A stretch of 64,000 nt of DNA, taken from contig WION01000035.1 in NCBI GenBank assembly GCA_015039365.1, forward strand, positions 1-64,000. Direction: 5' to 3'. The notes beneath the pieces were generated by a model, which worked only from the letters and a program-made list of their open reading frames with translations, ran no database searches and had not been told where the DNA came from. A program made the position numbers and the translations under genes. Positions 1,247-41,298 of this stretch are shown here, in pieces (positions within the stretch are counted from its first letter, which is position 1; every line of letters starts with the position of its first letter). The stretch is from Amanita rubescens. Its lineage: Eukaryota; Basidiomycota; Agaricomycetes; Agaricales; Amanitaceae.

Positions 1247-4200
1247 ATGCATCAGATTGAGAATATGACTGATCCAGATAATTGTCGCAGTCAGGCTAGG
1301 CATCACAGACAACCTGTTTTGCCTCATGGAATTGTTGAACAACCCAACTTTGGTCTGGAGCTGGCTGCTCAGATTCCACAAGTGGATATACCTGAGCATG
1401 TAAATGCTCCCAGGCAATTCCCTATGCCTGCTATTTTTCCTTTGGGCAGAGGAAATGCTATTCCTGCTCCAGGATTATTTGGAGCCTTAGTTGGTGGAGA
1501 AACTGCTGTCCAGATTGATGATCTTTTTGCTGCTGGGGCTCAGGATAGACGTATAATTGGGTGGAGAGATGTGGCTGCTCAGTTGCCTCCTCCTCAGCCA
1601 GTTAGAAGAGGAAGAGGCAGACCAAGAGATGTTTTGTCTGGGCCTCAGGCTAATATTGATCTCAATAATGTCCACAGAGGGCACATTGCTCATAGAGAGC
1701 AGGTTGATAATCACAGGGTGCAACAGTTGCAAGCCAGGTTGCAAGAAGAGCAAAGGCAAAGACAACTTGCTCATGCTCAGTTACTTAATGAGCAGAGACA
1801 AAGAGAACTGGAATTTGAACAGCATAGACAGAGAGGACTGGAATTGGAGTTGGAAGCTGAAAGGCAAAGAAGGCTTGCTCAAGCTCAGTTACTCAATGAG
1901 CAGAGACAAAGGGATCTGGAAGTTGAACAGCAGAGACAGAGGGACCTGGCTGAGCTGCAAAGACAGGAGGAACTGCAAAGACAGGTTGAAATACAAAGAC
2001 AACTGGCTTTGGAATTAGAAAACCTGGATGGTGTAGATGAGTTTCGACCACCAGAAGCTAATGCTCAAGTCAGAAATTTTATACATGATCAATGCAGAGC
2101 AGAGCATGAAAGAGATGAGAGCTTGATCCTGATCTAAATGACAATGACTTTGATGAATTTGATGTTGATGATTGGCAAAGACTGGATGATGCTATTGCTC
2201 AGGCTTTTCCTCTGAATGAGCAGCAAGAACAGGAAGCAGCTAACAATTATGGAGAGAACAGGAGATTTGAAAATCAAGCCAGACGAGACATGCAAAATCA
2301 TCAGGATGATGTTCCTGATCTGCCTCAGAGGGACCCCAGAGATCTTCCCAGGGCCAGAAGGCCATAAGATCTTCAGCCAAATGAAATCCATAATTTGGGT
2401 CCAATGAATGTTATTTGTGCTTATTGCAATGCCTTGCATTGGGACTGTGAAAAGTTGTCTTCTTCTACTGGCAGAAACCCAAAATTTGGCAGCTGCTGTT
2501 TGCAAGGTCAAATTCAGCTACCTCCATTGAGAGAGCCTCCTAGAGGCCTTAGAGACATGCTCTGTGGCATTTCCCCTCACTCAAAAACATTTAGGAAAAA
2601 TATTTGTCAATACAATGCTGCATTTGCATTCACTTCTTTAGGAGTGAAAATTGATCATGCTGTCACTAATGCTCCTGGACCATATTCATTTCGAATTCAT
2701 GGTGAATTACATCATCATGCAGGTGCTTTGCTTCCAGAGGAGAATCAGACACCATGCTATGCACAGATCTACATTCATGATGATGCTGACCAAGTCACTA
2801 TGAGAATGACAAATAATCCTCAGCTACAGCCAATTATTATGACTGAGTTGCAAGCAATGATTCATGAGACAAATCCTTATGTTGCTCTCTACAAATCAAC
2901 TCATCACATTCTGGCTGAAACACCTCCTGATCCTGCATATTCACCTTTGCATTATGTCTTGCTTTTTCCACATGGTGAAGATGGTTGGCATAAGGATATT
3001 CCTGCTGTGCCTGGACCCGATGGCAGAGTTGGCAGAAGTGCCAATGTTACCCAGAGATGTTACTATGCCCATAGGCTTCATAGACCAGCAGATTTGAATC
3101 AGCCTGCTCTTTTCCTAAGTGGAAAATTATTTCAACAGTATATTGTTGATGCTTGGGCTTCTGCTGAGCAAAGTGCTTTGAACTGGGCTAGAACTCACCA
3201 GAAAGAGCTTAGAGCTGATGTATACTGAGGTCTCAGAGATGCCGCAAGGGGTGACAGAGATGGAAATGCTACTTTGGAAAATCAGGGACAAAGAGTTATT
3301 CTTCCTTCAACTCATGTTGGGAGTGAAAGACACATGCTTCAATTGTTTCAGGATTCCATGGCCATTTGTAGAGAGTTTCAAAAGCCTGATCTTTTTATCA
3401 CCATGACTGCCAATCCAAATTGGCCAGAAGTGAAAGAAGCATTGCTCAAAGAATTAGGACCCCATGGCATGCCTCAGACTGCTGCTGATAGGACTGACAT
3501 TATGACAAGAGTGTATGAAGGAAAAAGAGATGCACTCTATAAAGAAATAAAAAAGGGTATTTTTGGCAGAACTGTAGCCATGATTTACACCGTTGAATTC
3601 CAGAAGAGAGGTCTTCCTCATATGCATCTTTTGGTCTTTCTTCACCCTGAGGATAAAATCAGAAATGCAGCTGATGTGGATACTGTTGTCTCTGCCCAGA
3701 TTCCTGATCCTGTTACACAGCCTGTTCTTTATGAGGTTATTACCAAGAATATGGTTCATGGGCCATGTGGTGTTGGATATCCTAATGCCAAATGCATGGC
3801 TGATGGAAGATGTACAAAGCAGTTTCCAAAGGAGTTTTGTGAAACAACTCATTTTGGTGATGATGGCTATCCAAAATATGCTAGACCTGACAATGGGCGC
3901 TTTTTGAAAAAAATGGCCACAGATATGACAATAGAGATGTTGTTCCATACAATCCTTATTTGTCTGCAAAATACAATTGCCACATCAATGTGGAAGTCTG
4001 TGCTTCTGTTCATGCAGTGAAATATATTCACAAGTACATCTACAAAGGTCATGACAGGACTACATTAGAGATTGTTGGAGATCATCAGAACAGAAATGAG
4101 ATCAAAGAATATCTGGATTCAAGATATATCTCTGCTTCAGAATCCTGTTGGCGCATTTTTGAATTCAACATGCATAAAGAGATTCCATCTGTCACACACT

Positions 4201-6410
4201 TGCCTGTTCATTTAAGGATGAGCAGTTGGTTTATTTCAATGAGGATGACAACCTGGATGATGTTGTAGAGAGGGGACAGACAAAGCATACTGCTCTGACT
4301 GCTTGGTTTGCAAAAAATAGAGTGGATCCTGCTGCACGAACTGTGTTGTACCAAGACTTTCCAAAAAGATATTGGTATGTCAAAAGGAGTCATGAATGGA
4401 GAGCCAGGGCTGGGAGAAATCCTCCAGCTATTGGCAGAATGTATTTTGCTGCTCCATCCCAGGGAGAAAGATTTTATCTGAGATTGCTTCTGACTGTTAT
4501 TGCTGGAGCACAGTCCTTTGAAGACTTGGGGAGATTTAATGGTGTACTTCATCCTACTTACAAAGATGCCTGCTATGCCAGGGGGCTGCTTGAGGATGAT
4601 AGAGAATGGGATCAGTGTCTTAGAGAAGCTTCACAAATGCAAACTGGCACTGCTTTGAGATCTCTTTTTGCTGTTATTCTTCTAAGCTGTTTTCCTGTGT
4701 CTCCTGAAATTCTCTGGAACAAATACAGGGAACATATTTGTGATGACTTGAAAAGAAGGCTTCAGAGGCTTCCCCAGTATCAGGATTATGAGTTTGATGA
4801 TGAAAAGATCTATGACTATGGCTTGCACCTCTTGAATAAAATTGTTATGAGGTCTGGAAAAACTCTGGCTGATTTTCCAAATATGCCATTGCCTCAAGAT
4901 CCTGTTGATGGTCAAAACTGGGAAGATATACTTGATAATTTTCTGTTGGCTCAGCAATTGGATTATAATCCTGTACAGCAAGCAGAAATGGTCACTCGCA
5001 ATGTAGGCATGTTCAATGAAGAGCAAAGAAATGTTTTCAACTCTGTTATGGATTCTGTCAATAATAATAGAGGCAAAAGTCTCTTTATTCATAGTGCTGG
5101 AGGATGTGGCAAAACTTTTGTGTGCAACACTATTGCTGCTGCTGTCAGATCTCAGAATCAAATAGCTCTCTGTGTGGCTTCTTCTGGGATCGCTTCTCTT
5201 TTGCTGGAAGGTGGAAGAACAGCTCATTCCACTTTTAAAATTCCAATTCCCATTACAGAGACATCCATAGCTGAATAAAAAAGAACACAAAAATGCATCA
5301 GGTACTGGAGAATACAAAGATTATTATTTGGGATGAAGGGCCTATGCAACACAAACATGCTGTTGCCTCTGTTGATCGACTCCTCAGAGATCTTCTCCAC
5401 CAAAATGACCTGCCTTTTGCTGGAATCACTGTTCTATTTGGAGGTGACTTTCGTCAGACTTTGCCTGTTGTGCCCAGAGCATTGCGTCAGGAGATTGTTG
5501 GTGCTTCTATTGCCAGAAGTAACCTTTGGAGACATATGGAAGTGCATCACTTAACTCAAAATATGCGCTTGGATAGAGCTCCTGAAAGTGAAATGCTGCT
5601 TGGCTATTGGAAATTGGTGCAGGCACAAACTTAGATGAGGCTGGAACAGTTCAAGTGCCAGAAAACATGTGCTGCAGTCCAAATACCAGGGATAAGTTGA
5701 TCAATGACACATATCCTGATATTCATCTGGGCGACAAACCAAATGAGTACTTTTTGGAGAGAACAATTTTGTGCTGCAAAAATGATGATGTGGATGACAT
5801 CAATAAGATTATTCTTGACATGATGCCAGGCATAGAAAAAGTTCTGAACAGTGCTGATTCAATTGATTTGGCAAATGAGGCTCAGGATGGATATCAACCT
5901 TATCCAATGGAATATTTAAATTCTTTGAATGTCAGTGGTTTGCCTTTGGCCAAATTGGCATTGAAAGTTGGATGTCCTGTAATGCTTCTCAGAAATCTTG
6001 ATGCAGCTAAAGGACTTTGCAATGGGACCAGAATGGTTGTCAGGGAGATAAAAAACAGAGTTATAAAATGTGAAATTATCTCTGGAGATGAAAGATTTGC
6101 TGGAAAGATTGTCTTAATTCCAAGAATAACACTTGAACCTTCAGCTGAGAATTTACCCATTCCTCTGAAAAGAAGGCAATTTCCTATCAGACTGGCCTTT
6201 GCTATGACAATAAACAAGTCCCAAGGTCAATCTGTCAAGTTTGTTGGATTAAACTTGCAGAGCCAGGTGTTTTCACATGGGCAGTTGTATGTTGCACTTT
6301 CCAGATGCACCTCTGGGAATAGGATTAGAGTGTGGTTACCTGAGGGAAATGAAAATAAAAGGGTACAAAATGTTGTATATCCAGAAATTTTGCAGAATTT
6401 AAATTTGTAG
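1247..6410 (+). pseudogene. Helitron Rep-helicase (RepHel), broken by frameshifts and stops
   Basis: The gene would encode the Helitron replication initiator fused to a PIF1-type helicase. In order: a Gln/Glu/Arg-rich, probably coiled-coil N-terminal region (1,247-2,137); the Helitron-like N domain (2,395-3,228); the Rep domain with the HUH histidines in LPHMHLL (codons 3,613-3,633) and the Tyr motif in KYIHKYIYKG (near 4,017-4,050); helicase Walker A GGCGKT (near 5,098-5,115); Walker B IIWDE (near 5,320-5,335); FGGDFRQ; and C-terminal helicase motifs ending in the conserved QLYVALSRC. Reading is interrupted by a TAA at about 2,366, a TGA at 3,226-3,228 and single-base frameshifts near 2,120, 3,910, 4,213, 5,275 and 5,600. 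Every domain is still visible, so the copy is fairly young or the indels are partly assembly errors. It cannot be functional as written. Confidence 0.9.
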
Positions 6411-15691: not shown

Positions 15692-15836
15692 GTTTTTACT
15701 TACCACATTTGCATATGTAACTTGTACTATAAAAACCACACAAATATATGTATGACTAGACCTCAGTCTAGTTTTAACAGTCAAACTGTTTCATTATCAC
15801 CTAAGATCCCTTGAGGATTTAATTGATAACACCCCC
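15692..15836 (+). repeat. Old, CpG-stripped relic of an LTR of the retroelement A family
   Basis: The stretch aligns with the solo LTR at 28,494-28,900, including gactagacctcagtctag followed by ttttaacagtc. Where the younger copy has ttgcgtatg, cacgcaaat, ctcgttatcg and tccgat, this copy has ttgcatatg, cacacaaat, ttcattatca and attgat: the CpG sites are replaced by CpA or TpG. It is therefore an ancient copy that decayed by cytosine deamination. Confidence 0.8.
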
Positions 15837-20905: not shown

Positions 20906-21506
20906 TGTAATGATGGATATTTCATTATCATTTCATTTCATTTTCTTTTTCTTTTATTACAGAATATTCCCACACTTACCTAAGGATTCCACGGAATGAC
21001 GGCATGGGAGTAATGAGTCAGAGTATATATACCTAAGCACACCTATGTATTCCTTAGTCTTATGATTGTTTCTGTCATCCATAGATTCAATCCAGTCTCA
21101 TTGTTTCATTGTGATTTCATCCTCGAGTGTCTTAGTGATTGTGTCTGGACCACCTCCTAACATAATCGTAAGACTCTTCACACTACCACACTCACTCGTT
21201 CGTCGTTGCACACAACGGACACGCAAACCATTCGACAGTTATTGTGCTTGATAGCGCTAGTAGCCCACTTCAGATATATCTATCTCCTCACATTGCATAT
21301 TGCACATATCCACTACCGCTTGATAAACTGGACTCAAGGATTAACGAGATAGGACTGGGACTGCTCTAAACTCGGAGTTGCAGACCTGGTAAAACCACGA
21401 TCTGTTTGGGTTTGGGCATACCTATTTGATCCATAGGAGAAAACAAACGATAAACCAAATGAACAGTATTAAGAACTCCCTTCGTCCCTGTGAAGAATAA
21501 GAAGAG

Positions 21507-22853
21507 ATGCCTTACACGCCAATGGAAGCTTTGATTACAGCATGCGTAGGACTATTGGTAGCGTTGATTGGAGCCTTCTTGTCTGCACCAATACGAGCCT
21601 TATGGACAGCCACAACAGGCGCAGAACAAAGAGTGGCAGGGGCGAGAGTAGCGACAGTGATAGGAGAGATAAGGGAAGCATTTAGAGAACCACCCCGACC
21701 TCCCAGACCTCATATGAAGATTGACCCACCTGATGGGAAACCAGAAAAGATAGCACATTGGCTGAGGTCAATGAGAGCATACTTCTCGTTAACAGAAGTG
21801 CTCGACAATGCCCAAACGATAGCAATTGCCCTGCAGAGAATAAAAGGAGGAACGGCGAACAGAGCAGAGAATTGGGCAGGAGTAAAACTACAAGAGTTCA
21901 TGGATTTCCAAGCAGAATTAGTAAGAAAACCACAGGCGGCGCGATACACATGGGCGCAAACAAGACTGGGAGTGGAGGCGGCGGCAGAGGTAGTAGTGGT
22001 GATATCACCCATAGGAGAAATGGTGGTGGCCCCTAGACCAGCGGAACCAGGGCTAGCGGCGTTCACACACCTGCCACCGTTCGACCACTGGGATGACTTC
22101 AAAGCAAAAGCACTGGCCTTCTTCATGACTATGGAAACGAGAGATGAGGCGATCAGACACCTCAGAGAACTGAAACAGGGAAAGAGGCTGGTGGAAGACT
22201 ACATCATCGATTTCAAGAGTTGGGCGCAATTAACGGATTTCAACGAAATAGCCTTGATCGCCCAATTCAAAGGAGGATTGAACCCACCTCTAGGAATGAA
22301 GATAGTGGAGAATGGAGCACCGGGAGACAGAGCGACAGCAGGAGATTTACAGTTATGGTATGATCAAGCCACAGCGTTGGATAAAGCATGGAGAGACGGA
22401 CAGAAACTATATGGAGGAACGATACGACCCCCATTTAGACCGAGATTCACACAAAACATAACGCCAATGCCACAGGAGACAAAACCGACTGCGGCAGCCA
22501 CAGGGGCAATGGTATCAACAGCAACGACTTCGACATCCAGACCGGATCTGAACGCCATGCAGATAGACCGCCGCAGAGGACCAGTCAAGTGCTACAACTG
22601 TAACAGATTCGGACACATATCACGGAACTGCCCAGAACCGAGAAGAGAAAGGAGGGAAGTAAGAGAATGGATGATGAATGCGCCTAAATGTGAGAACTGT
22701 GGAAAATTGGGACATATGACGGAAGCGTGTTGGGGACTGAAGAGAGAAGTAAAGGAGATCAGGGAAGTGACATGGAAAGAAAGGATTGAAGGAGCAACAG
22801 AAGAAGAGAAAGTGGAAATAGCGGCGTTGATGGGTTTTCAGAATGGTCAGTGA
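21507..22853 (+). CDS. gag: Gag of retroelement 1
   Basis: A 448-aa uninterrupted frame. Near the C-terminus are two retroviral-type zinc knuckles (CX2CX4HX4C), [14 protein letters not shown] and [14 protein letters not shown], typical of Gag nucleocapsid; the middle contains a capsid-like stretch ([28 protein letters not shown]). Unusually, residues 8-29 ([22 protein letters not shown]) form a strongly hydrophobic segment that could anchor Gag to a membrane. The stop overlaps pol; the ribosome would enter pol by -1 frameshifting at GGGTTTT (22,832-22,838), five codons before the TGA. Confidence 0.9.
22832..22838 (+). promoter_or_regulatory. -1 frameshift slippery site, gag-pol of retroelement 1
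   Basis: In the gag frame the sequence reads ATG GGT TTT CAG, giving the X XXY YYZ heptamer G GGT TTT. A -1 slip continues as TCA GAA TGG TCA GTG in the pol frame without a stop. Confidence 0.7.
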
Positions 22854-24136
22854 GCGCACCTCCAACGATGCTGACCGAAGAACGATATGATACAATCCCT
22901 GATGTACAGTACAAAGATTCAAAGTTAAATATTGAATGCATCATGTATGAACTCAGAGGATTGGAACATAAGTGGAGAAACAAAAAAATAACAACAAAAA
23001 AAGACAGATTGATGACATGGCAAGGACCCTGGATGGTGAGAAGGATATGGGAACAACCAGAAGAGGTGGCTGTGCAAAGTCTAAAACAATGGGTGCATAA
23101 GATGAGGGAAAGAGAAGCGACGGCAGAGACAGTAAATGTGTTGAATGGGATGATGGAAGAGAATGCATTATGGCACTTACAGAATCTGAAACGGAAGGAA
23201 TGTTATGTCCAAGGGAAAGGCAAAAACCAGATGATGGCCAACGGAACAATTACCACCTTAGACACCTTCGAAAGGCTTAAGGTGGAGATACTCACTGACT
23301 CGGGATGCACGGGACCCCGCATTAATGAAAATTTTGCACAAAAACACAACATTAATACATGTCGCCTAGACCGACCCATCCCTGTCTACAACGCTGACGG
23401 TACGCCAAACTTGGGAGGAGCGTTAAAAGAGATGGTGCAACCAAGGGTACAAATTGGGGCTCACCACGAAATCTTTGAATTCGGCGTATCAGCACTTGGA
23501 AAGGTCAACATATTCTTAGGACATGATTGGTTAAAACACCACAACCCAATCATCGACTGGAAAAAAGGCTCACTCCTTATGAAACGCTGCCCAGGTAGCT
23601 GCCACATAGAGAAAGAGAATGAGGGTGGAATAGATACCGAGGGCAACAATGACTCCACCGGTGGAGCACATGAGTGGGAGGAAGGAGACAAGTTGTTGGC
23701 GGTAATGGAAAATGAAGGAATGGGGTGGGGAATAAGAATGCATGCAACCATGGCGACTGAGATAGCGGTAGCGAACCAAATAAAATGTGATGTGGAAGAC
23801 ATCATACCCGCTCACTATTTGAGTCGCCGAGAAGTGTTTGATAAAGAGACATTTGATGAGTTACCAAAGAGAGGAAGATGGGATCACGCGATCGAATTGG
23901 TACCTGGCGCCAAAGCAGTGGACTGCAAAATCTATCCACTCAACAAGGAGGAGCAGGAACAATTAGATGCATTCCTGAAAGACAATTTGGAGACAGGGCG
24001 AATAAGGACAAGTAAATCTCTGATGGCATCACCGTTCTTCTTCATCAAAAAGAAAGATGGGAAATTGAGACCGGTACAAGATTACCGAAAGTTGAACGAG
24101 ATGACAATAAAAAACAGATACCCATTACCACGAGGT
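22839..24136 (+). CDS. pol: Pol of retroelement 1 (protease and start of reverse transcriptase), truncated
   Basis: The -1 frame after the slippery site is open to the break at 24,136. The aspartic protease has its DSG at 23,297-23,305 (LTDSGCTGP) and the later [16 protein letters not shown] block. The reverse transcriptase begins with [20 protein letters not shown] and KNRYPLP, then stops before the catalytic YxDD; the following codons (GLYPPP...) belong to the adjacent element. The remaining RT, RNase H and integrase are missing. Confidence 0.88.
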
Positions 24137-26331
24137 CTTTACCCTCCCCCACTCATTCCTTATGGATTCCTTGCATTCCATGCAGAAGTTCCATGGAATC
24201 CACGTGGATTCCTTGCAATTTCAAGATGGTCCAAATGGCCCAGAACACACTAAAAAAAGTGCATGGAATCCATGCATATTCCATGGAATTTCAGGAATTT
24301 GCCTGGAACGGGAGTGACTAGTGACAAGGAATCCACATGGACTCCATGGACTCCATGTGGATTCCAGGTACATTTCTGCCTGGTTTGCATAATGCTGACA
24401 TACAAGGACTTTCAGCACAAGGAGTCCTCAGGAGTCCACATGGACTCCTGATTCCCATGGTCATGTGACAGGCCACTTGGTCTGTGCGCCAGCCTACAGG
24501 TATATAAGGAGAGGGCATGTACCACATATCCCCCAGCTTCCCCTCCTGAAGGGAGGGGAGTGATAAGATTAGATAGATAGATAGATAGTGATTAGATATA
24601 TGTACATCTCATAGGTAAGCTTAGGTAAGCTTAAGTAGCAGTATGATGATGTAGATAAGATAAGATCACAGATAAGATAATATGATTTCCTTTTATAGAA
24701 TTTGTGACAACATGAGGTGTGTGACATGTAAATGTGACTGTGACAAAAAAAGATGCACCTAGATTGTGTGATTCAGAATATACAAGAATGACGGTGCCAA
24801 ACAATGTCAAACATGAGATATTTGCAAAACACTTTTTCAGATGTGACAGAAAATTGAAAAAATCCAAAAAATTGTCAAAAATCCAAAAACATTATGTGAT
24901 CACATCTCTGCAAGAATTGCAGTGCAAAACACAACCAAACACAAGATATTTTCAAAATACTGTTTTGGTGGGAATGGTGGCTGTTACAGTAATGGACTCC
25001 TACATTACACAATCATGCTTGGCAGATAAGCCTCCTCATTCATCATGCCTATCCTTGCTTACTCTACCTTGATTACTTTGCTGACACATGCATTGTTACA
25101 TATGTAGCTGTGGTCAGCAATCTGATATGTAGTGGGGTGTACACAACTTTACTGTATTTATTTCTGCAACACAATCAGGACCTAGCCTACTCCTTTGCAA
25201 CTTTGTAGTTGTTTCCCCCATTTGACTGGTGTGTTTGCAAGATGCTGTACCTACTAAGCTTCCACACTAGAACCATCTGGCAAATCAATGGTTTAGTCAA
25301 CAAGTGATACAATGAGACAGACTAGGGCTATGTAAGACTAGTATGGATACATATATTGAAAGAACACCTCAAGTTTGCAATAGTGCCCCTTAGACAGTCA
25401 GACAGTCAGACATAATGTGTCAGCAGCTATCAGTCAATCAGACAATCAGAAAATCAGACAAGTTATGGAGTAGTGTATCTCAGATGATTAGGCAGTCAGA
25501 CAACCAGTATGTCAGACAGAATCAGATGCAATCAGACTTTTGCTGTGTTAGCTGATGGTCATCCAGTAGGTCACTTCTGTACTACTGATTTGAACTGAGA
25601 TCCTTAAAGTCTGCTTAGATGCCCAGCCTTTCAGCTAACAGATGTGGTTGCTGGAGGTATGCATAAGCTGGTAGGTGTGAGAGGGAGGTGGCAGGTGATT
25701 GCAAGTGGTTCTCTGTGATGGTAATGAGGTAGACATTGATAACTTGAATTGCTGGCATGTCAGCCACCATTAATCACTAGCTGTCAATATTCTGCTAACA
25801 ACTGCTCACCAATGTATGTATCTCCAGATAGTCATCTCCAAACTTCAAACCCCCCCACATGATTACAGAACCCTCATGACAACCTTCTCACATCTATTCA
25901 TGACCTCTGAGGCTCTGCAATGTTATGTCAGGTCATCAGCAACCACTGCCACTGTGCCACACTCCAACTGCCAGTCATAGATGGCAAAATGTCATATAGC
26001 AATAGTCTGTGGCTTTTGAATGGTTAGCTGATACTGATCCAAGGACTATCTTGGTATTTGGACTCTACTATGCATGTCCTAAGATAATAAATCTTATATA
26101 GGTTTGATCTTATGAATTTTCTATATTTTTTGGAATTTTTTCCATATGTGGACTCCATGGATTCCAGACAGTCTACCAGGAATTCAGGTGTAAATCATGT
26201 TTTTGCCTGTTGCCAGGAATGTGCCTGGACTGAGCATGGAATCCTGGTAGAATTTCCACAGAAATTTCCTTTTTGCAAGGAATCCATGGAGTCAGCCAGG
26301 ATCCTGCCAGGAAGTGTGGGGGAGGGTAAAG
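24137..26331. mobile_element. 2.2-kb non-autonomous element with 16-bp terminal inverted repeats
   Basis: The left end ctttaccctcccccac (24,137-24,152) is the exact reverse complement of the right end gtgggggagggtaaag (26,316-26,331). Both ends continue inward with pieces built on attcc-atgg-aatcc. The interior has no supported gene, is CpG-poor, and contains a TATA-bearing module (24,463-24,513), a gata microsatellite (about 24,568-24,588) and a cagacagtca-rich tract (about 25,390-25,530). No target duplication was seen at the borders (cacgaggt versus tactggaa), and the interrupted RT does not resume on the right, so a deletion or rearrangement accompanied its arrival. Superfamily unknown. 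Confidence 0.65.
24463..24513 (+). promoter_or_regulatory. Repeated TATA-bearing module, copy 2
   Basis: catgtgacaggccacttgg to tatataaggaga (TATA box 24,501-24,508) matches 14,610-14,668. It is followed by a purine-rich gaagggaggggag and tgataag, which could be a polypurine tract and LTR start. Confidence 0.4.
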
Positions 26332-26337
26332 TACTGG

Positions 26338-28014
26338 AATGGGGCCACTCAGGAGCAGTCACTTTCAAAGATGTCATTGGTCAAGGGCTTCGGCAAGAAC
26401 TCATTGGAGCGTAATGGGCTGTTGTTCAGGCTCAGCATTGATGCCAGGTGAGACCTTTGCTCTTCAATACCTCATTTGTGGACTGATGTGAATGGCCATT
26501 CAGCATTTTGATGTACCAGGCACATGCTGCAATACACACACCCAGGAGCCGGTTTGCGGGAGAAAATGCCGTGCTACAAGTGCTTTTCTTCAAGCTCACA
26601 TGCCTTCTCTGCAACTGTGTCATTCCTGTATTTGTCTTTGATGGACCCTGCCGCCCTTTGGTGAAGTGCAAGAAGAATGTTGTACAACGATGTGACTGGC
26701 TAGTCAACTACCTCAAGCAACTGATTGCAGCATTTGTTTCCATGTGCACCAGGCCAGTTGTTCAGGTCATTCTAAGTCTGCTGTGCTCACAAACCTTTCA
26801 TGAAGGCTCCGGGGGAAGCGGAGGCTGAGCTTGCTCAGCTGAATGCAAAAGGGATGATTGACACTGTTCTGACTGATGACAGTGATGTGTTTGTGTTTGG
26901 TGCAACACATGTGATTTGTACAAGGTAAGAACTGGCTTTTTGTGGTATCTAGTACCTCACTGATACGTGGTGCCAAGCTTGTCAAAACTTGTGGGCTGAA
27001 ACGACGTCAATGTCACATCCTACACGCTTGACCAAATCAATGCACATCCAAGTATCCTGTTGATACATGAAGGCATGATAATGTATGCACTACTGGCGGG
27101 TGGTGATTATGAACCGGTGAGGCGCGTTAGAGAGTGAAAAAGGACCTACTGAATATATACTTTCCAGGAAGGTCTACTGGGATGCAGTCAGAAGCTAGCA
27201 CACCAAATCGCATGCTACACCGGTCTTGGTTATCAATTAGTTCACGCCTTTGAAACAAAGTCAGAAGATGAGTTCAGTGCTTACCTCGGAGGATGGTGTG
27301 CCCATCTGTGTGACATACTATCGACCGAGGACAAGCTCCTTTTTGGCTGCCACCATGTAGCACTTGCAAAAACCATCCAGGATAGCTTCCCTCCACTCAG
27401 CATACTCAAAAATTATGTAAAGCCTGTCACCTCGTGGTCAGCCAAAGACACACCTGCACCCGATGTAGCATCATAGACGGTGTGTGTCCCGACTTATGCC
27501 AGATGACAAAGCTTTGTGAACACCTGTTCTCATGGGGCACCAGCACTGGAATAAAAGAGAAACTGTCCAAGCATGTGTGGCCAGGCATTCTCCTGCATCA
27601 CATGCTGAGGGTACGTCAATCATGAATGCAGTCTAGTTTATGGCTCATCAATGGCCACAGGCAAGCCGGCACCAGGATGGCTCATCAGAAAATCCGGGAG
27701 AGTCCTTGGATCTCCTTCGGATCCAGCGATCCTCAATCACCAAGCCCAGAATTCTGATGTATGTGGTCAAGGCATCCACCAGTCCCCTGGCCAAGACTGT
27801 TGAAGAGAGCATCATCGGCATCCACCCTCTGGCTCAGAGTACCCAAAAGGCTTCAAGTTCACTACCACCAACTACAACATTTCCAGTCCCAGCCTGCATT
27901 CTTGCCCATGCATCACCCAAAATGGTCAATCAGTATGAAAACAGTCCTGCAAGGCGAAGAAGATGCAGAACAAAGCAAGCAACCAAAAAGAAGGTATGTG
28001 TGAGTCACCTGTAG
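26338..28014 (+). pseudogene. PIN/XPG-type (GEN1-like) nuclease relic
   Basis: Pieces in order match agaric 'PIN domain-like' proteins of the XPG/GEN1 nuclease group: LRLSIDA (near 26,430), an intron gtgagacc...taccag (about 26,450-26,519), ENAVLQVLFFKL, VIPVFVFDGPCRP, then APGEAEAELAQLNAKG and IDTVLTDDSDVFVFGATHV (26,806-26,925), which contains the acidic metal-binding residues, and GMIMYALLAGGDYEP. Later parts (LFSWGTSTGIKEKLSKHVWPG, KPRILMYVVKA) are C-terminal. Further introns start gtaagaactgg (about 26,926) and gtgaggcgcg (about 27,118). Frame breaks in the first exon and a stop near 27,474 show it is dead. Such nucleases cleave branched DNA. Confidence 0.7.
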
Positions 28015-28493: not shown

Positions 28494-28900
28494 TGTTACA
28501 AATGTATGTCATGGCCTATCTTTTTTCATCTTATCACTTCCGTTATCCCTCCTACGTCATTGTTTGCATATGCATTCCTTCTGGAACATTCATCGTTTAT
28601 CATATGCTGTTTACTTTTATCACATGCATGTTCTTTTCACATGTTAACCGTTTCATTATCACATGCATTCCTACTTACTATATTTGCGTATGTACTTTGT
28701 ACTATATAAGACACGCAAATATACAACTAGACCTCAGTCTAGTTTTAACAGTCAAAATCTGTCTCGTTATCGTCTAAGCTCCCTTGAGGACTTATCCGAT
28801 AACACTCCTATCCTTTGAATGTTCTTAAGTGCTGGAACTCCCTTAAGGAACCTACGGTACCTGATAGGCTTGACTTATCAGTGAATGAACAAACGTAACA
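28494..28900 (+). repeat. Solo LTR of the retroelement A family
   Basis: A 407-bp block from tgttacaaatg to acgtaaca that matches, in opposite orientation, the LTRs at 31,285 and 39,373. It has the TATA box (actatataag, near 28,700) and the cagtctagtttt start signal. It lies inside the recombinase gene. Flanks are agggg and ggggg, so a target duplication is only suggested. It is more diverged than the two A LTRs are from each other. Confidence 0.9.
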
Positions 28901-31284: not shown

Positions 31285-31726
31285 TGTTACGTTTGTTCGT
31301 TCACTGATAAGTCAAGCCTATCAGGTACCGTAGGTTCCTCAAGGGAGTTCCGGCACTTAAGATCGTTCAAAGTATAAGAGTGTTATCGGATAAGTCCTCA
31401 AGGGAACTTAGACGATAACGAGACAGATTTTGACTGTTAAAACTAGACTAAGGTCTAGTCGTATATTTGCGTGATTTATATAGTACAAAGTACATACGTA
31501 AATATGGTAAGTATATATGCATGTGATAATGAAAACGGTTGCATGTGATAATGAAACGGTTGCATGTGATAATGAAACGGTTATCATGTGAAAACGAACA
31601 TACATGTGATAAAGATAGTTGGCATATGATAAACGATGAATGTTCCGGAAGGAACGCATATGCAAATAACGACATAGGAGGGATGATAAGATAAGAAAAG
31701 ATAGGCCATGACGTACGTTTGTAACA
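31285..31726 (-). repeat. 3' LTR of retroelement A
   Basis: 442 bp, tgttac...gtaaca. It carries three copies of a ~21-bp unit (tgcatgtgataatgaaacggt), against two in the other LTR; otherwise I found only one single-base difference. On minus it contains a TATATAA box and the agtctagtttt start region. Confidence 0.95.
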
Positions 31727-31966
31727 TAGCCCTTCTCCTACATACGAAGTCCAATATTCACCGAATATTGAAATAATTTGTGACTACGTGTTACGGTTAT
31801 GTTCGGCGTCGCTGTCATAGGTGTAAGAGTCTTCGTTTCCTTGCCAAGGGTGACGACGGCGACGGCGGTTATCGGTAAGACGTTCTTGAAGAGTCGGTCG
31901 TTCTTCTCGTGTATTGGAAGCAGTCATGGTGGCGACAGGTCGTAATTGTCCTCGTGTCGATTGGCC

Positions 31967-33991
31967 TCAACGATTTCCAAGGTTTCGTCGTGACGGTGGG
32001 GGTCCGGTAGTAGTAGTGGTGTTGCGGTTACCTGGAGGACGAGTATTTGTTCCTCGTCGTCTTCTTTCGATAAGCGGGGAAGGTTCGCCTTGTTCGAGTT
32101 GGGCGGAATCAATAGTGGTAGCGGGTGAAGCTGTAGAAATTCGTCGTTCGGGAATTTGTTCAAACGGCGTGGGCACCGACGATTGTGTTATAGCGTCTGG
32201 ATAAGTGGGGGGAGGAGTTTCCTCATGCACCGGCCCTCGGCGAATTTCTCGTCGTTGATGGTGTTCGGTAGTGTGATGCGGGGCTCCGCACATGTAACAG
32301 CCTTGAGTTCCAGGGATATCTTCTCCTTCAAAGGCTAAGTTATTCGGTTCAAATGATACTAATCGTTCAGCTGAGGGATCAGGTCCATGCAGGTGAAAGA
32401 TAGTACGACGTGTCGGATTTTCAGGAATAGGGACATCGCGTCCTTCAATTGTATGTCCGGTTTGAAGTGCGATGACGGCGGCGTCTTGGTATTCGTTACT
32501 GGTATTAGGTCTGTTGGGGTTACGATCGTTCCTCCACATGAGATTGTTAATCGTCGTTTGTAGTTGTCGTAATATAGTTATGTCCCAACCATCGGGGGTC
32601 ATCATCGGGTTGAGTCGGTCACTAAGGGTTCGAATTCGTTCGAACGTGGCATTGACGGGAGTGCGGGGAAATACAGGACGTCCGTGCATCCAGGCCATGC
32701 CAGTGTCTAAAGCGGGTTGTCGTGTCGGTTGGATGAAATGGTGACGATGTCCGGCGGTGGTAAGACGGGTTGCTTCTTCGAGGTATACGTCTCCTCGTAG
32801 ATCACAAAACCAATGAATATTATTCCAGATCATCAAAGTGATCCAGCGGTTGTGTTGCGGTTCTCGGAACCGGCGGGTGAGATTAATGATGACGTTGACG
32901 AGGGCCATCAGATCAGGGCGAACATATCTATTCAAGATGAACAGATAGTTGTTGGCAAAGGTCCAGGACGTGAACAACGTCCAGATTCGATAAAAGGCTC
33001 GTCGAATTATCGGATCGACAAAGGAGGGGATAGCGTAGTGTGTCAGAATGACGTCAATAGTAGGAATATCAGGTGCAGGCACATTAAAATTGTCGTCGTT
33101 GACAGAAGCGTGCTGAAATAAGAACCTAGGAATAGGTCCTTCGGCAGGGAGCCTAGGCGCTGGGCTCATAGATCGAGTATAGGTTTCCCTCATTAAATCT
33201 AATGGGGTGTAAAGGGGTCTTGGTGACGGGGTATTTTCCGGGAAGACAATAGGGATCGAGATGGGGTTGACGAGTCTTTCATTGATTTCGTCGTCGGTGA
33301 TGGCGTTAGCAGTGACAACATCAAGTTCGGCGGCGACAGCATTAGCGGCAGCAGAGATGGCGGCAGTGGTTGCAGCATTAGTGGCGGCAATGGTCCTTGC
33401 TCTTTCAAGGTAGTTGTCTACGAGTTCTTCGTCGATGGGAGGAATTCCCATAGTAAAGGCGGTGGTGTTGAACATAAGTAGTCCTTCTCGCATGATCCGG
33501 ATATCTTCGGGGGTAGTATCGGGACGTGGTCCGCGTGCATAGGTGATGACCATTTGGTCTCTGGTGGCGAATACTTGAGCTACCATTTCCTGCATCTCAA
33601 GTGGCACAGGAGTATTAGAGGGAATAGCGTTCCCCATATCTGTGACGTTTCGCATTAGTTCTTCTATCATAGAAGCGTTTGATGGTGGGAAGGTATAAGA
33701 TGAGTTAGAAGATAAAGAATCTTCATCTCGTGGTATGAATTCCTCGTCAGAAGGAATTATAGGGAACCATTCTGTACCGATGGACGTATAATGTAACATA
33801 CAGATGGGAGGAGGAATTGGCAATGGCGTGGGCGATTCCTCTCTAGAAGGGGTCGGAGGGATGGTTTCCTCGACGACCGTTGAAGTGGCTGGAGTAGCAG
33901 CGGCGGACAGGTTGTTAATGGGGGAGGACATGGTTTCAAGAACGGCGTTTTCGTGATTTACGAGTAGTGGGGATAATTGCTGTGATTCCAT
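31967..33991 (-). CDS. Third ORF of retroelement A (unknown function, zinc-knuckle-like)
   Basis: A 674-aa intact frame that starts inside the end of pol (56-bp overlap with the frame ending at 33,936) and occupies the position of an envelope gene, but shows no signal peptide or convincing membrane segment. The N-terminal third is Pro/Ser/Thr/acidic; an Ala-rich helix (residues ~205-230) follows; the centre contains a WNNIHWFCDLRGDVYLEE block that looks globular. Near the C-terminus CYMCGAPHHTTEHH fits a CX2CX4HX4H finger, a variant of the Gag zinc knuckle. The tail is basic with Thr/Pro. After the TGA (31,967-31,969) the same frame stays open to 31,784, so a longer version is possible. It may bind RNA or act as a Gag-like accessory. 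I know no named family. Confidence 0.75.
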   Translation of the reverse strand: MESQQLSPLLVNHENAVLETMSSPINNLSAAATPATSTVVEETIPPTPSREESPTPLPIPPPICMLHYTSIGTEWFPIIPSDEEFIPRDEDSLSSNSSYTFPPSNASMIEELMRNVTDMGNAIPSNTPVPLEMQEMVAQVFATRDQMVITYARGPRPDTTPEDIRIMREGLLMFNTTAFTMGIPPIDEELVDNYLERARTIAATNAATTAAISAAANAVAAELDVVTANAITDDEINERLVNPISIPIVFPENTPSPRPLYTPLDLMRETYTRSMSPAPRLPAEGPIPRFLFQHASVNDDNFNVPAPDIPTIDVILTHYAIPSFVDPIIRRAFYRIWTLFTSWTFANNYLFILNRYVRPDLMALVNVIINLTRRFREPQHNRWITLMIWNNIHWFCDLRGDVYLEEATRLTTAGHRHHFIQPTRQPALDTGMAWMHGRPVFPRTPVNATFERIRTLSDRLNPMMTPDGWDITILRQLQTTINNLMWRNDRNPNRPNTSNEYQDAAVIALQTGHTIEGRDVPIPENPTRRTIFHLHGPDPSAERLVSFEPNNLAFEGEDIPGTQGCYMCGAPHHTTEHHQRREIRRGPVHEETPPPTYPDAITQSSVPTPFEQIPERRISTASPATTIDSAQLEQGEPSPLIERRRRGTNTRPPGNRNTTTTTGPPPSRRNLGNR

Positions 33992-36900
33992 GTTGTTCCT
34001 TATATTCGTTTAAGGTCTCCTCGGAATGTTCTAGGTTTTCCTCGGTTTCCCATGAATTATCAGATGTCGGATAACCTTTCCATTTGACTAAAAATTGCCA
34101 TTGGTTTCCTTTTCTTCGGTGCGAGACAATTGTCTCGATTTCGTATTCTTCTTTGTTATCTATAAGGTCTGGGGTTGGTCTAGTAAAGTTTGGACCATGT
34201 GTTTCGTTTTCATGATAAGGGGTAAGGAGTGAAACATGAAAAACGGGGTGAATCTTCCATCTTGGGGGAAGTTCAAGTTTAGCGGTGACAGGTCCTAAGA
34301 TCTTTTCGATCTTGAACGGTCCTTCTCGTCTAGGTGAGAACTTTCTTATTTGTCCTGTTTTCAGGTTTCGTGAGTCTAGCCATACCAAATCTCCTTCTTT
34401 AAATGTGGGAGATTTCCCTTTGACTCGTTGAGTCATTAGCTGTCTAGCTAATTCGTGCGCGGCGAGAGCTTCGTCTCGTATTTGCGTTAAGACCTTAAAG
34501 CGGTCTTCAGCGGCGGGTACGTTGATTCGCGGGAATGCTGTGGGGATAGCCACAGGCTCTATTCCAAACATGATTTCAAACGGCGTCATCTTGGTAGATT
34601 GATGTATCCGTTGATTGTGCGCGAATTCTGCTAATGGCAGATGATCTTTCCATTGTTTTGGATGATCAACGCAGTATAATCGGAGGTAGGTTTCTAGCTC
34701 CTGATTGAGTCGTTCCGATTCTCCGTCAGTTTGCGGATGAAAGGCGGTCGACTTTCTATGATTCAATTCCGAAGATCTTGCAGATTTCTTCGAAAACTTT
34801 AGAGGTAAATTGTGGTCCTCTATCAGAGATGAGGGTTGTCGGTAACCCGTATCGTTTGTAAACATCGTTAATGTAAGAGTTGGCGGTATCCATAGCGGTA
34901 AAAGATTTTTTGCATGGTATGAATATTACGCCCTTTGTTAAGCCTTGATCGACCACGGTCAAAACAGAATCAAAACCGTCGATAATTGGCAGATCTGTGA
35001 TGAAGTCCATTGAAACTTGTTCGAATGGGCGTGTGGCGTGGGATTTAATAGGCATCAAACCCGGTGTGATCGGATGTGTATTAACCTTCATTTGTTGACA
35101 TAAGGCACAGCCTTCGACCCATTTAGATACGGTCGTTGTCATTCCAGGCCAATAATAGTCGCGGTGGATAAGCTCTAGTGTCTTCAATCGTCCAGGGTGA
35201 CCCATAACTACGGGGTCAGTGATGTGACTTGATTATTTCGTTTCGTAATTCTTCGTTTTGAGGAACATAAATGCGTCCTTGATAACGAATGATGTTGTTA
35301 TCGTTCTTCCAGTCATTAAACTTTGATCGGAGGGGTAGTTTTCCGTGCTTGAGACCGTCGATTACAACTTTAGCAAATTTATCTTGTGGCAATAATTCGG
35401 TGATTTTGTCTGCCCAAGATACATTGATCGCGGCGATAACCATGTCATCAGAGATCATGGTTTGTGGGATTTCTTTTGCTTTTGCCTCTTCTTCGTTAAT
35501 ATGGTCAGGGCGTCTCGATAAAGCGTCTGCCTGAATAAGTTTTGATCCAGGGACATGTTCTAACTTGATATCAAATTCCGTGATTTCTTGCCACCAGCGT
35601 GACTGTCTGGCGGTCATCTTCTGCGGATGTTTGTAATATGATAAATTCTTATGATCGCAGTGGATCATAATCGTATGTGGGCTTCCTTTAAGAAGGTGTC
35701 TCCAGGTTTCAAACGCTTTCTTTATTGCTAATAACTCGCGATCGTATACTTGATATCTTTGTTCGGTATCGCTTAACCGATGACTGATAAATCCGCATGG
35801 GTGCAGTTCTCCATCAGATCCCCGTTGTTTCAGGACGGCTCCTACCGCCCAGTTTGACGCATCGGTCTCTAATAAAAACGGTTTCGTTGGATCTGGCATA
35901 ACTAGAACCGGTTCTTCTAGGAATTTCTCCTTTAACAGTGTCAAATGCTTTCTGACATTCTGCATCCCATCGGAAGGGAACTGTTTTCTTCGTAAGTTCC
36001 GTGAGCGGAGCTACTATTTCGGCGTAAGTTTCCTATGAATTTCCTGTAAAAGTTCGCGAACCCTAGAAATGACCGTATTTGTTTAACAGTTTTCGGTTCG
36101 GGCCATTTGCTGATTCCAGCGAGTTTTACGGGGTCCATCATGATCTTTCCTTCTTTGACGATCATCCCAAGGAATTCGACTTCCTTGGCGACGAATTTAC
36201 ATTTTTCCAGTTTCAGGAACAGATCGTTTTCTTTCAGCCGTTGTAAGACTTGCTTAGTGCGCTCCCTCGTTTCTTCCTCGTTCGCTCCATATATCAACAT
36301 ATCGTCAATATAGACGACTAGCCATCCTTCGGCTATCATGTCACGGAAGTATTCGTTCATCATCGTTTGAAATGTTGACGGTGAATTGCATAATCCAAAG
36401 AGCATTACAGTAGGCTCGAAGAGACCACGGTTCGTCGTGAACGCGGCTTTCCATTCGTCGCCTTTCTTTATTCGCACATTATTGTAACCCCATCGGAGGT
36501 CTAACTTGGAGAAGTATTTTGCTTTTCTTAGTTTTAATAATAAGTCGGATACTAAAGGAAGGGGATAGGCATTCCGTTTTCGTCCAGCTATTGATGTATC
36601 GGTAATCTTGGCAGGGTCTCAACTCTCCTTTTTCTTTCTTTGCAACGTAAAAGAAAGGAGACGCTTGCGGAGATTGTGATGGTCGAATATAACCTTTTTT
36701 GAGTTGTTCGTCGACCCATTTATTCATTAGCTGTTCTTCATGGATTGATAACGGGTAGTTCTTCGCCACTTTAGGTTTAAACCCTTCTTTCAGATCTATC
36801 GCATGATCCCATTGTCGTGAAGATGGGAAATCGTTCTGACGTCTGTTTATCAAAAACTCTTCTCCATTTGTCATATTCAGGGGGTAATTCTACTTTCGTA

Positions 36901-37540
36901 GATTTATCTTCGTGTTCATGTGCGAGCGCTTGAGACGCTGATGTTTTCGCTTGGATCCAAAGGTGATCAGTCTCGAGATCCTCGTCCTCATCTGCGTCCA
37001 ATTCTTCTTCTTTTTGGATATACTGAAGATACATTTCGGTTTCATCGTCGTAATCAAACGTAGTTTCTTCTTCCGGATTCGATCTTCCTTTCGTCGGGGA
37101 ATCTAACTGTTCCTTCAGACCAATCTATTCTGGGGTTGATTTCTCGGAGCCAAGGTAATCCTAGTATCAGTCGTTGATCGCCTAGTCGTGTGACATAAAA
37201 CCAGTCTTTAAACCGGTTGTCTTCGATGTTATAGCTTATCTGGATTTTATACCGTATAGTCTCCAGACTTGTTATTTGTTCCGTCCACATTTCGCACTGG
37301 GATGGGTTTCTTTAAGCGAGTGATTTCGTTCCAATTGACGAGTGAGCTATCGACGAATTTTCCTTGTGCGCCTGAGTCGATAAGGGCTTTGGTTTCAGCG
37401 GTTTTTAGATTCGAACATTTGGTAATGGGAATGGTGATTTTATTTCTGGATATAGAAGATACTGTTACACCATTTATACATAGTTGTTCGTCTTCAGAGA
37501 CGACGGACGCTGATTCATCGTCGTCTCGTTCTAAAAACCC
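33936..37540 (-). pseudogene. pol: Pol of retroelement A: protease, RT, RNase H, integrase, chromodomain (frameshifted)
   Basis: Reached by a -1 slip at 37,540-37,534. In order on minus: protease with DSG (about 37,378-37,370) and LILGLPWLREINPRIDW; reverse transcriptase with [33 protein letters not shown] and catalytic YIDD (about 36,313-36,302); RNase H with LLETDASNWAVGAVL and VYDRELLAIKKA; integrase zinc finger (HPGRLKTLELIHRDYYWPG...CALC), catalytic Asp residues in SMDFITDLP and ISDRGPQFTS and Glu in TDGESERLNQ; chromodomain QFLVKWKGYPTSDNSWETEENL (near 34,090-34,030). Single-base frameshifts occur near 37,255, 37,080, 36,850, 36,590, 36,020, 35,210 and 34,790, so no full Pol can be made as written. 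Confidence 0.92.
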
Positions 37541-39330
37541 TTTTTGTTCAATTTTCGGCGGGCACTACGTGGTAATGTTTTCGCCATTTCTCGTATGACG
37601 GCGATTCTCTGGTCTTCGTCGTTTTCACTGTTGGATTCTTCACTTGACGAGCCACTGTCGTCTTCATCGCTATCCGCATCCAGCGCTCTGATTCTTTTTC
37701 CTTTTCCTTTCCCTTTGTTGCGGTTATTATTTCGGCCGCGTGGTTTTCCTCGAAATTGTCCTCTAGGGGCTGCCCTTCCTCGTGAATTCCCAAGGTTTTG
37801 TCGTTTCTTTTTGGGATTAGGGCAGTCCGAGATTAAATGTCCTGTTTTTCCGCATCCATAGCATACAGCGGTTTTTACCCATTCCATGGAGGTTTCAGCA
37901 ATCTGCATTTGTCGCGCTTGTCGGTTTAATTCTAGTACAGCCTCGTCGACTTCCATTTTGTCATCAAACTCTTTTACTTGGCCAAAAGTGGAGAATAAGG
38001 TGTTCGCCACTTCTATGTCAAGGATACGAGTTCGTAATGATTTATAGGTTGTCGGGGCACCTCCTAGTCGTAGTTTTTCTCGTAAGGTATTTGGTAATCC
38101 TAAAACTAAGAGATGACATTTCGTCGTATCGTCAGTGATTTTGGCTAAATTGATGTCTCGATCGACGCGCGCAATATATTGATTAATTGATTGCTTTGGG
38201 AGTTTTCTCCATGTGAGTAATCTGTGCATGGCTAGTCCTGCTTCGTCTACTTGTCCCCAATCTTCTTTCAGTTCTTTAATAAAAGCATCATAGTTGGCGT
38301 ATTTTGTCGTTTCGGCGTCATATTCAGTTATTTTGTTGTCGCGCCATTGTTGAGCGTTGCCATCAATATGATACATAATGAACTGTATCTTATCTTGAGC
38401 ATCCGTCATTTTATTCATTTTCATGAATAATTCGGCTTTCGCTATGAACGGATTGAGATATTTTCGATCTCCTTCGAACGGTTTAGGAGGTTTGATCTTC
38501 GGTAGATCTGACCTTGGTTCGGTCCGGGGTCCTGATCCACTCATATCTCGTTCTTTTCCTTTTCTAGAAGGAAATGGGTTGATTGGTGGGGTAAACAAGT
38601 ATGGGAATACGACAGGGGGTAATGGTGCGGGTCGTGTAGCTTCGAGTTTAGATTCGGCTGCAAGGGATAAGGAAGCGATGAGTTGGGCTGAGATTTCAGT
38701 CTTCAACTCGTTGTTCTACTGTGGGTATAACAACGTCTTCGGTTCCAGGTGCGTATTCAAGTTTATCTTGGGATTCTTCTTCTTTCTCTTGTTCAGAGGG
38801 GGAATCTTTATTGTCTTCTTTATCGGACTCTCCTGACGGTTCAGCGCTTTCTCTGTAAGTGAACGTGTGGTGATGCAACGGGAGTTTCTTGGCTAGTGGT
38901 TAAGGTTTCTGGTTCGTTCGCTTTCTTCCAACGTTGTAGCGCAGTTCGTGTTAACTCCTCTTTTCCTCCTATGAAGGGTTCTCCTTCAAAGTATTCGTCT
39001 CTAATAAAGTACGGTTCTTCTCGTGTTTCCGATTCAGTGGCGTACCAACGTTTACTTCCTTCGTGAAAGGCAAGTTTGCGTTCGTTTAGATATAATTCTC
39101 CTTCGAACGGGAAGGATTGATTTGGTGGTCTTCCAAGTTTTTGTTTTACCCAAAATTGGTGACCTGGTACGGGTTTTCCTGAAGCGGTATAACACCAGCC
39201 GTTTTCTCGTTTATCCCAATGAATGGAATGTTCGTCGAGATAATAGAGATGGTCAAGGGGATTTCGTTTGGCGTTATTCGGAGGGGTACTTTTAGATTGT
39301 CGTGGAGCAATGGTGAATGATGGGAGGTGA
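37531..39330 (-). pseudogene. gag: Gag of retroelement A (zinc knuckle intact, N-terminal part frameshifted)
   Basis: The frame from about 38,706 to the TAG at 37,531 has a capsid-like region (KPFEGDRKYLNPFIAKAELF, INQYIARVDRDINLAK), one zinc knuckle CYGCGKTGHLISDC (near 37,864-37,823) and a basic Arg/Gly/Lys tail followed by an acidic Ser/Glu stretch. Upstream, in-frame pieces continue through 38,878-38,696 (acidic) and to about 39,330 (HWDKRENGWCYTASGKPVPG) with frame changes near 38,870 and 38,700, so the start codon is uncertain. The stop coincides with the slippery site used to enter pol. Confidence 0.85.
37534..37540 (-). promoter_or_regulatory. -1 frameshift slippery site, gag-pol of retroelement A
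   Basis: On minus the gag frame ends AAG GGT TTT TAG, so the heptamer G GGT TTT lies directly before the stop; the -1 frame continues TTA GAA CGA GAC into protease. The same heptamer is used by retroelement 1. Confidence 0.75.
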
Positions 39331-39359
39331 GAGCGTTAAAGCTATCGTGCTCGGAGAGG

Positions 39360-39370
39360 AGTCTAGTTTT
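39360..39370 (-). promoter_or_regulatory. Putative self-priming primer-binding site of retroelement A
   Basis: Two bases inside the 5' LTR end, the minus strand reads AAAACTAGACT. Its exact 11-nt complement AGTCTAGTTTT lies in the 5' LTR at 39,538-39,528, 33 nt after the start of a TATATAA box (39,571-39,565), where transcription should begin. This matches the Tf1/sushi arrangement in which the RNA 5' end primes reverse transcription. No TGG-type tRNA primer site is present. Confidence 0.75.
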
Positions 39371-39372
39371 AT

Positions 39373-39794
39373 TGTTACGTTTGTTCGTTCACTGATAAGT
39401 CAAGCCTATCAGGTACCGTAGGTTCCTCAAGGGAGTTCCGGCACTTAAGAATCGTTCAAAGTATAAGAGTGTTATCGGATAAGTCCTCAAGGGAACTTAG
39501 ACGATAACGAGACAGATTTTGACTGTTAAAACTAGACTAAGGTCTAGTCGTATATTTGCGTGATTTATATAGTACAAAGTACATACGTAAATATGGTAAG
39601 TATATATGCATGTGATAATGAAAACGGTTGCATGTGATAATGAAACGGTTATCATGTGAAAACGAACATACATGTGATAAAGATAGTTGGCATATGATAA
39701 ACGATGAATGTTCCGGAAGGAACGCATATGCAAATAACGACATAGGAGGGATGATAAGATAAGAAAAGATAGGCCATGACGTACGTTTGTAACA
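39373..39794 (-). repeat. 5' LTR of retroelement A
   Basis: 422 bp; nearly identical to 31,285-31,726. TATA box at 39,571-39,565 and inferred RNA start near 39,538 on minus. Confidence 0.95.
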
Positions 39795-40819: not shown

Positions 40820-41298
40820 CACGTCAGACATGCTTACTTTTTCGTATATGCCTACCCCTTGTCCAATCCCCATTATGTTCACCACATACGGACCGCCTCG
40901 TTCCCTTATCGATCCCCACTCCATTTACCCTATGCCCAACCCCTTGCTCATACGTGTACCATCCCTTATGCCCCCTGTTCCACCTATACTTGTTATCGCC
41001 TTTGTTCTACTTACAGTACAGCTGTGTTTCTGTACATGTACATATATAAGATCAATGTACTGTAACGTCGAACCTTAAGTTCGACTTAGTTTGTCTTTTC
41101 AATATCATCTCATCTCACCTAAAGAACGTCATTCACACTCCGTTCATTATTGCTCTCAAGTATAAGACTCCTCCTAGTCGTCTTATCACTTAGCTTATTC
41201 GTTCACCTATTGTTTGACTTGTCTGTTGGACTTAGTCTACTTTGTCAAGCGCTCTTAGAGTGGACACATTGTAGGTGGAGATTGACGTGATCATAACA
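40778..41298 (+). repeat. Solo LTR C with 5-bp target duplication
   Basis: 521 bp from tgttacaaacacgg to gatcataaca, flanked by acacc at 40,773-40,777 and 41,299-41,303. It holds a TATA box (catatataag, near 41,041). It shares the TGTTAC...AACA ends with LTR A but not its body, so it is a different family. Confidence 0.85.

Follow-up and report, generated by a model that had tools for sequence, protein, structure and literature searches.

The primer-binding site (PBS) of the LTR retrotransposon Tf1 is published as pairing with the 5′-terminal 11 nt of the element's own RNA, which RNase H cleaves between nt 11 and 12 (PMC7175516). A further account regards self-priming as commonly shared by Tf1/sushi chromoviruses and gives the Tf1 5′ UTR a three-duplex 'pretzel' structure (PMC10085805). 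Self-priming has likewise been proposed from sequence for Tj1 of S. japonicus, Tosmo1-3 and Tcry1 (PMC4600332; PMC10085805) and for Tcn1 of Cryptococcus neoformans (PMC7175516). For plants, a survey predicts it for the majority of Tcn1 elements and proposes it for TAR elements too (PMC6317226), and a study dealing with SM-Tcn1 reports that no evidence of self-priming was found (PMC2864245).

The DNA analysed here is a stretch of 64,000 nt from Amanita rubescens (GenBank assembly GCA_015039365.1, contig WION01000035.1, positions 1 to 64,000), referred to below as the window. It contains a chromodomain-bearing LTR retrotransposon, element A, with the following parts:

31285-39794, minus strand: element A, LTR retrotransposon of about 8.5 kb with a chromodomain
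39373..39794, minus strand: 5′ LTR, 422 nt, TGTTAC...GTAACA
37531..38715, minus strand: gag frame, Ty3_capsid and CCHC zinc knuckle (Pfam profile match)
35941..36618, minus strand: reverse transcriptase (RT) piece of pol (Pfam profile match)
35216..36010, minus strand: RNase H piece of pol (Pfam profile match)
34756..35232, minus strand: integrase zinc-binding and core domains (Pfam profile match)
33936..34925, minus strand: integrase C-terminal part, SH3_Tf2-1 domain and chromodomain (Pfam profile match)
31967-34009, minus strand: 680-aa frame, past the chromodomain and before the 3′ LTR
31285..31726, minus strand: 3′ LTR, 442 nt

The two LTRs, with ends TGTTAC and GTAACA, differ by 22 gap columns and no substitutions, so the insertion is likely to be young; the 5-bp repeat GCTTC lies on both flanks. 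The knuckle in Gag scores 23.2 bits against PF00098, and the integrase C-terminus, examined in element A alone, carries a chromodomain (PF00385, 56.4 bits) together with the SH3_Tf2-1 domain (PF24626, 64 bits). The integrase piece matches Ty3 and retroviral integrases in PDB. The pol of element A is broken into several frames, and in many of its relatives the corresponding place is taken by an open frame of 1206 aa. A Pfam search of the 680-aa frame gave no match, even at E up to 1.

Element A resembles Tf1 and Tf2 of Schizosaccharomyces pombe in its chromodomain integrase and in a 5′ LTR ending in CA (PMC10085805), and Tf1 in the 11-nt core of the primer-PBS pairing (PMC7175516). It differs from the fission-yeast elements in that its Gag has a CCHC knuckle and theirs does not (PMC10085805), and from Tf1/Tf2 in the extra 680-aa frame after the integrase; RNA start and cleavage are, moreover, predicted here. 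Tj1, Tosmo1-3 and Tcry1 belong to the fission-yeast clade, whereas the elements described below fall, within one genome, into five lineages that differ in their primers; Tcn1 is likened to them by description. On the domains of element A and on PBS pairing, they likely belong with the Tf1/sushi chromoviruses, where they are best placed.

The features on which the argument turns lie at the 5′ end of element A and in the copy of its LTR:

39360..39370, minus strand: PBS, AAAACTAGACT
39371..39372, minus strand: spacer of 2 nt from LTR end to PBS, equal in length in 8/8 subfamilies
39528..39538, minus strand: predicted self-primer, AGTCTAGTTTT, complement of the PBS
39565..39571, minus strand: TATA box, TATATAA, beginning 33 nt before the self-primer
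31439..31449, minus strand: self-primer copy in the 3′ LTR

An initial annotation had reported the PBS motif 2 nt inside the end of the 5′ LTR, its exact 11-nt complement in the LTR, with TATATAA beginning 33 nt away, and the lack of a tRNA-type TGG. The first two are confirmed at 39360-39370 and 39528-39538 (both minus), and the third is borne out by the PBS 11-mers and 2-nt spacers of all eight subfamilies, none of which contains TGG. Primer-PBS complementarity in element A extends to 12 nt, and TATA spacing together with the constant register places the predicted RNA 5′ end, i.e. the start of R, at 39538 (minus). It had further been claimed that the motif is retained in a relic at 15,692-15,836; the relic proves to have the LTR 11-mer (15765-15775) and no PBS, which leaves it silent on complementarity, and as evidence for self-priming it was dropped and given no weight. 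The solo LTR at 28,494-28,900 is silent in the same way. A one-mismatch 11-mer at 27630, with neither a TATA box nor an LTR nearby, was taken as chance. Genome-wide, the element A 11-mer occurs 434 times, against 70 for the reversed control.

The reading adopted here, to which a probability of roughly 0.93 is given, is that element A and its sister families self-prime in the Tf1/sushi manner from a predicted RNA start. The RNA of element A would begin with AGTCTAGTTTT at AG, a start placed by the TATA position and the shared register, and its 5′ 11-mer would fold back onto the complementary PBS 2 nt inside the 5′ LTR. If published Tf1 is a guide, a cut between nt 11 and 12, presumably by the element's own RNase H, would then free the primer, and the free 3′ end of the 11-mer would prime minus-strand DNA. 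One step further, plus-strand DNA would copy the primer, and each round could thus rewrite the PBS from LTR sequence, which would explain how the pair stays matched while drifting.

Co-variation of the two 11-mers among family members, which had been set as a test of the Tf1-like reading, supports it in five lineages with different sequences. The genome searched comprises 75.7 Mb in 786 contigs and gives 48 Fungal_trans and six hydrophobin matches, which mark it as likely fungal; relatives were located via RT matches, of which the best 150 of 621 and the best 150 of 525 candidates were scored, and their 5′ regions were then examined. Among these scored matches, eight subfamilies of five lineages were distinguished in this one genome (A, B1, B2, G1, G2, G3a, G3b and G3c). 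In each of them the PBS 11-mer begins 2 nt past the CA of the LTR, an 11-mer of the subfamily's own LTR complements it exactly, and the distance from the start of the TATA box to the LTR 11-mer is 28-35 nt in all eight. There are seven distinct primer-PBS pairs, B1 and B2 using one in common, with the following predicted primers:

Lineage A: AGTCTAGTTTT
B1 and B2: AGTTCGACTTA
G1: AGTCCGAATAT
G2: AGCAACAAGCT
G3a: AGCCTTACGAT
G3b: AGTCTTACGAT
G3c: AGTCTTATGAT

All predicted primers have AG as their first two letters. The complementarity ends at this AG in A, G1, G3a and G3c, and continues upstream by 1 nt in G2 and G3b and by 2 nt in B1 and B2; taking AG as the first base is therefore the choice of a common register, and the start so defined is a predicted one. 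Across lineages 9 of the 11 pair positions vary in sequence with pairing kept, and within G3 the three forms differ by single primer changes, each compensated in the PBS. The RT identities, from a comparison that left out rows A_L029, X_L024 and X_L026, are 43-50% between G1 and all others, 52-62% for A or B against G2 or G3, and 61-67% between A and B. They are higher between B1 and B2 (79-84%), between G2 and G3 (81-85%) and among the G3 forms (88-97%).

Chance accounts poorly for this pattern, since the stretches that follow the eight PBSs supplied 3801 control 11-mers, none of which is exactly complementary to its own 500-nt LTR stretch. Pairs taken across families reach a longest run of 8 and at best 10/11 (the latter between G3 forms only), and 11/11 is found solely in own pairs, B1 and B2 sharing a PBS. 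When primers and PBSs of the five lineages are assigned to each other, the own pairing scores 55/55 and the other 119 assignments score 47 at best and 31.6 on average, with 28 (of 55) as the best score for an assignment without any own pair. The copia elements of the same genome were considered as a negative control; two were examined in pieces, showed no LTR pair in the stretches and were left unused.

At the level of single insertions, 40 distinct junctions, not all of them independent (some, e.g. L024/L025, resemble alleles or copies of one insertion), comprise 37 that are fully complementary, 3 with one G-U and none with a mismatch, in a table that detects only flanks resembling the eight representatives, themselves found by searching for complementary pairs. 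The table has 42 rows; L004/L005, L006/L007 and L030/L036 are the same sites, L075 was added, and the rows L015 and L053, misaligned in the table, are both exact. When the three A sites that had been fetched by the PBS 11-mer (behind L004-L008) and L057, with its differing PBS, are dropped, 34 of 36 are exact and 2 have a G-U.

A less biased count starts from the RT side, with 44 RT neighbourhoods (L013-L056). The element's own junction lies inside the stretch in 26 of them, and 25 of these junctions are exact and one (L030) has a G-U. For the 18 with their own junction outside the stretch the circumstances are as follows: (i) in 11 (L013, L015, L017, L019, L020, L021, L024-L027 and L031) the A/B similarity or the stretch ends before the PBS, (ii) in L036, L040 and L051 other elements are nested upstream, (iii) in L048 the stretch terminates at the primer, (iv) L054 and L055 have elements in opposite orientation and (v) the pair seen in L046 is that of an opposite-strand B2 element, the RT's own junction being out of view. 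No counter-example to complementarity was found among them; the lists cover the best 150 of 621 and of 525 RT candidates and the representatives were chosen by complementarity, so that a lineage without it could have been missed. The G-U pairs had been considered as evolutionary intermediates, but in L030 the 3′ LTR has the original base, so that there the G-U reflects decay of the 5′ LTR at a CpG.

Family A by itself is uninformative on co-variation, its copies being too alike or too young. A search pattern in which any sequence could fill the PBS slot listed 100 junctions (of 108), 99 of which carry AAAACTAGACT, and PBS changes (1 in 100 x 11) set against those in the non-CpG flank (1 in 100 x 16) indicate that the site is not more conserved. 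In the variant AAAGCTAGACT (C748) the LTR 11-mer is unchanged, and a G-U preserves the pairing.

Two side observations concern the genome as a whole. At family A junctions, CpG sites account for 20 of 21 flank changes, and 18 of these gave TG or CA, a pattern suggestive of cytosine methylation or some comparable mutation bias. Pairs of matches with equal scores lie on different contigs (for example C2:887876 and C160:68329; C107:7234 and C231:7234), which suggests that two haplotypes were assembled separately and that copy counts may be inflated.

Folded from the predicted start, all eight 5′ UTRs contain the 11-bp primer-PBS duplex in their minimum-energy fold, with a mean pair probability of 0.94-0.97. 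The 5′ UTR of element A has a z of -4.07, and none of 200 shuffles folds as well. Of the three duplexes of the Tf1 'pretzel', the central one is present in 8/8 of these predicted folds, and the two flanking ones are inconsistent across the eight subfamilies: an own pair outranks the others of both its row and its column in two cases only, the 3′ flank of A (-18.0 kcal/mol, the next -16.0) and the 5′ flank of G2 (-19.0 kcal/mol, the next -13.3).

Lineages A and B have, in addition, a third copy of the motif, as an inverted arm in U3, which in element A is the following:

39542..39548, minus strand: arm ACTAGAC in U3, pairing with nt 2-8 of the self-primer, with 3 nt between it and the predicted start downstream

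In A, B1 and B2 (loci L024, L030, L032, L037 and L038 besides the window) this arm is 7-8 nt long, complementary to primer nt 2-8 or 2-9 and located 3-4 nt upstream of the predicted start; its sequence is ACTAGAC in A and GTCGAAC in B. Beside an exact primer the A arm is intact in 11/11 distinct listed upstream contexts, and the B arm is kept in 8/9, the form of L024-L026 having one change. Read from the sequences, A and B have different bases at 5 of the 7 arm-primer pairs, and the pairing is preserved. An equally long arm within 40 nt upstream occurs at 11 of 2350 control positions in B1 and 12 of 2750 in B2, and at 15 of 371 in A, a short stretch to which the site's own neighbours may contribute. 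The arm search found none over 4 nt in G2 and none of 4 nt or more in G3a, and in G1 it gave a distant 7-mer at -40 (control 32/3150).

This third co-varying copy is not explained by simple self-priming. One possible, though doubtful, explanation is a lock, in which a hairpin with the arm would hide spare copies of the self-primer, at the RNA 3′ end or in RNAs that start too far upstream, so that only the true 5′ end would pair with the PBS. Fold calculations would support this only partly. With an RNA start 15-25 nt upstream, the arm is predicted to win fully in B2 (P of primer:PBS 0.00) and to take the primer partly in A (0.19-0.50, and about half, 0.49, at -25), and in B1 the primer is not locked by it (0.99).

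The same arm is what lends some substance to a rival explanation, very unlikely overall, in which the RNA starts upstream and the arm folds onto the 11-mer, the match to the PBS then serving folding, packaging or dimer formation and not priming. The arm does lie within 3-4 nt of the 11-mer in A, B1 and B2, and with a start 15-25 nt upstream the arm is predicted to win completely in B2 and, at -25, about half in A. Against it, the TATA box precedes the 11-mer by 28-35 nt in all eight subfamilies, so that RNA starting 15 nt farther upstream would begin at an unusually short distance from it; B1 is unlocked, and in G1, G2 and G3a-c the primer shows little pairing with the 25 nt before it (0.03 or less). 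Also very unlikely is priming by a host RNA (tRNA 3′ end, half-tRNA or other small RNA) with an LTR match that is coincidental or there for something else: most LTR elements in the plant survey do have PBSs matching tRNAs and about 2% match half-tRNAs (PMC6317226), but here all eight PBSs are without the TGG that pairs with a tRNA 3′ end, the PBS differs by lineage and is always the complement of its own LTR, as is none of the 3801 neighbouring 11-mers, and five coincidences, along with as many different host RNAs, would have to be assumed.

Other elements in the window can be set beside element A. A second element predicted to be self-primed, of lineage G3, occupies 21024-24253 (plus), with a CCHC-containing gag and a protease frame downstream:

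21024..21031, plus strand: TATA box, 32 nt before the self-primer (hand-counted)
21056..21066, plus strand: predicted self-primer, AGTCTTATGAT, lineage G3
21165..21175, plus strand: PBS, ATCGTAAGACT, pairing by 10/11 Watson-Crick pairs and one G-U

No other LTR of this element was found in the 64-kb window, and its G-U may reflect either decay or an intermediate state. At 41067-41088 (plus) lies LTR sequence of lineage B1 that includes the arm and the primer (GTCGAACCTTAAGTTCGACTTA), beside which no B-type junction appeared in the junction survey. At 2368-5278 (plus), pieces of a Helitron-like N-terminal domain and of a PIF1 helicase are perhaps a Helitron remnant.

A search of titles and opening abstract lines, with limited coverage of subscription papers and of the founding Tf1 papers, found no report of multi-family primer-PBS co-variation of this kind, an absence that is weak evidence of novelty. 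In the literature covered, self-priming has been worked out on Tf1 and elsewhere proposed from sequence. The genome of A. rubescens adds seven natural primer-PBS pairs in a fixed register and, within the single lineage G3, changes that compensate each other. The rule that can be read from them (CA, 2 nt, an 11-nt PBS, and a start about 30 nt from the TATA box) may serve to detect such elements elsewhere and to determine their orientation, and the seven pairs make the rewriting of the PBS from the primer in each round a testable idea.
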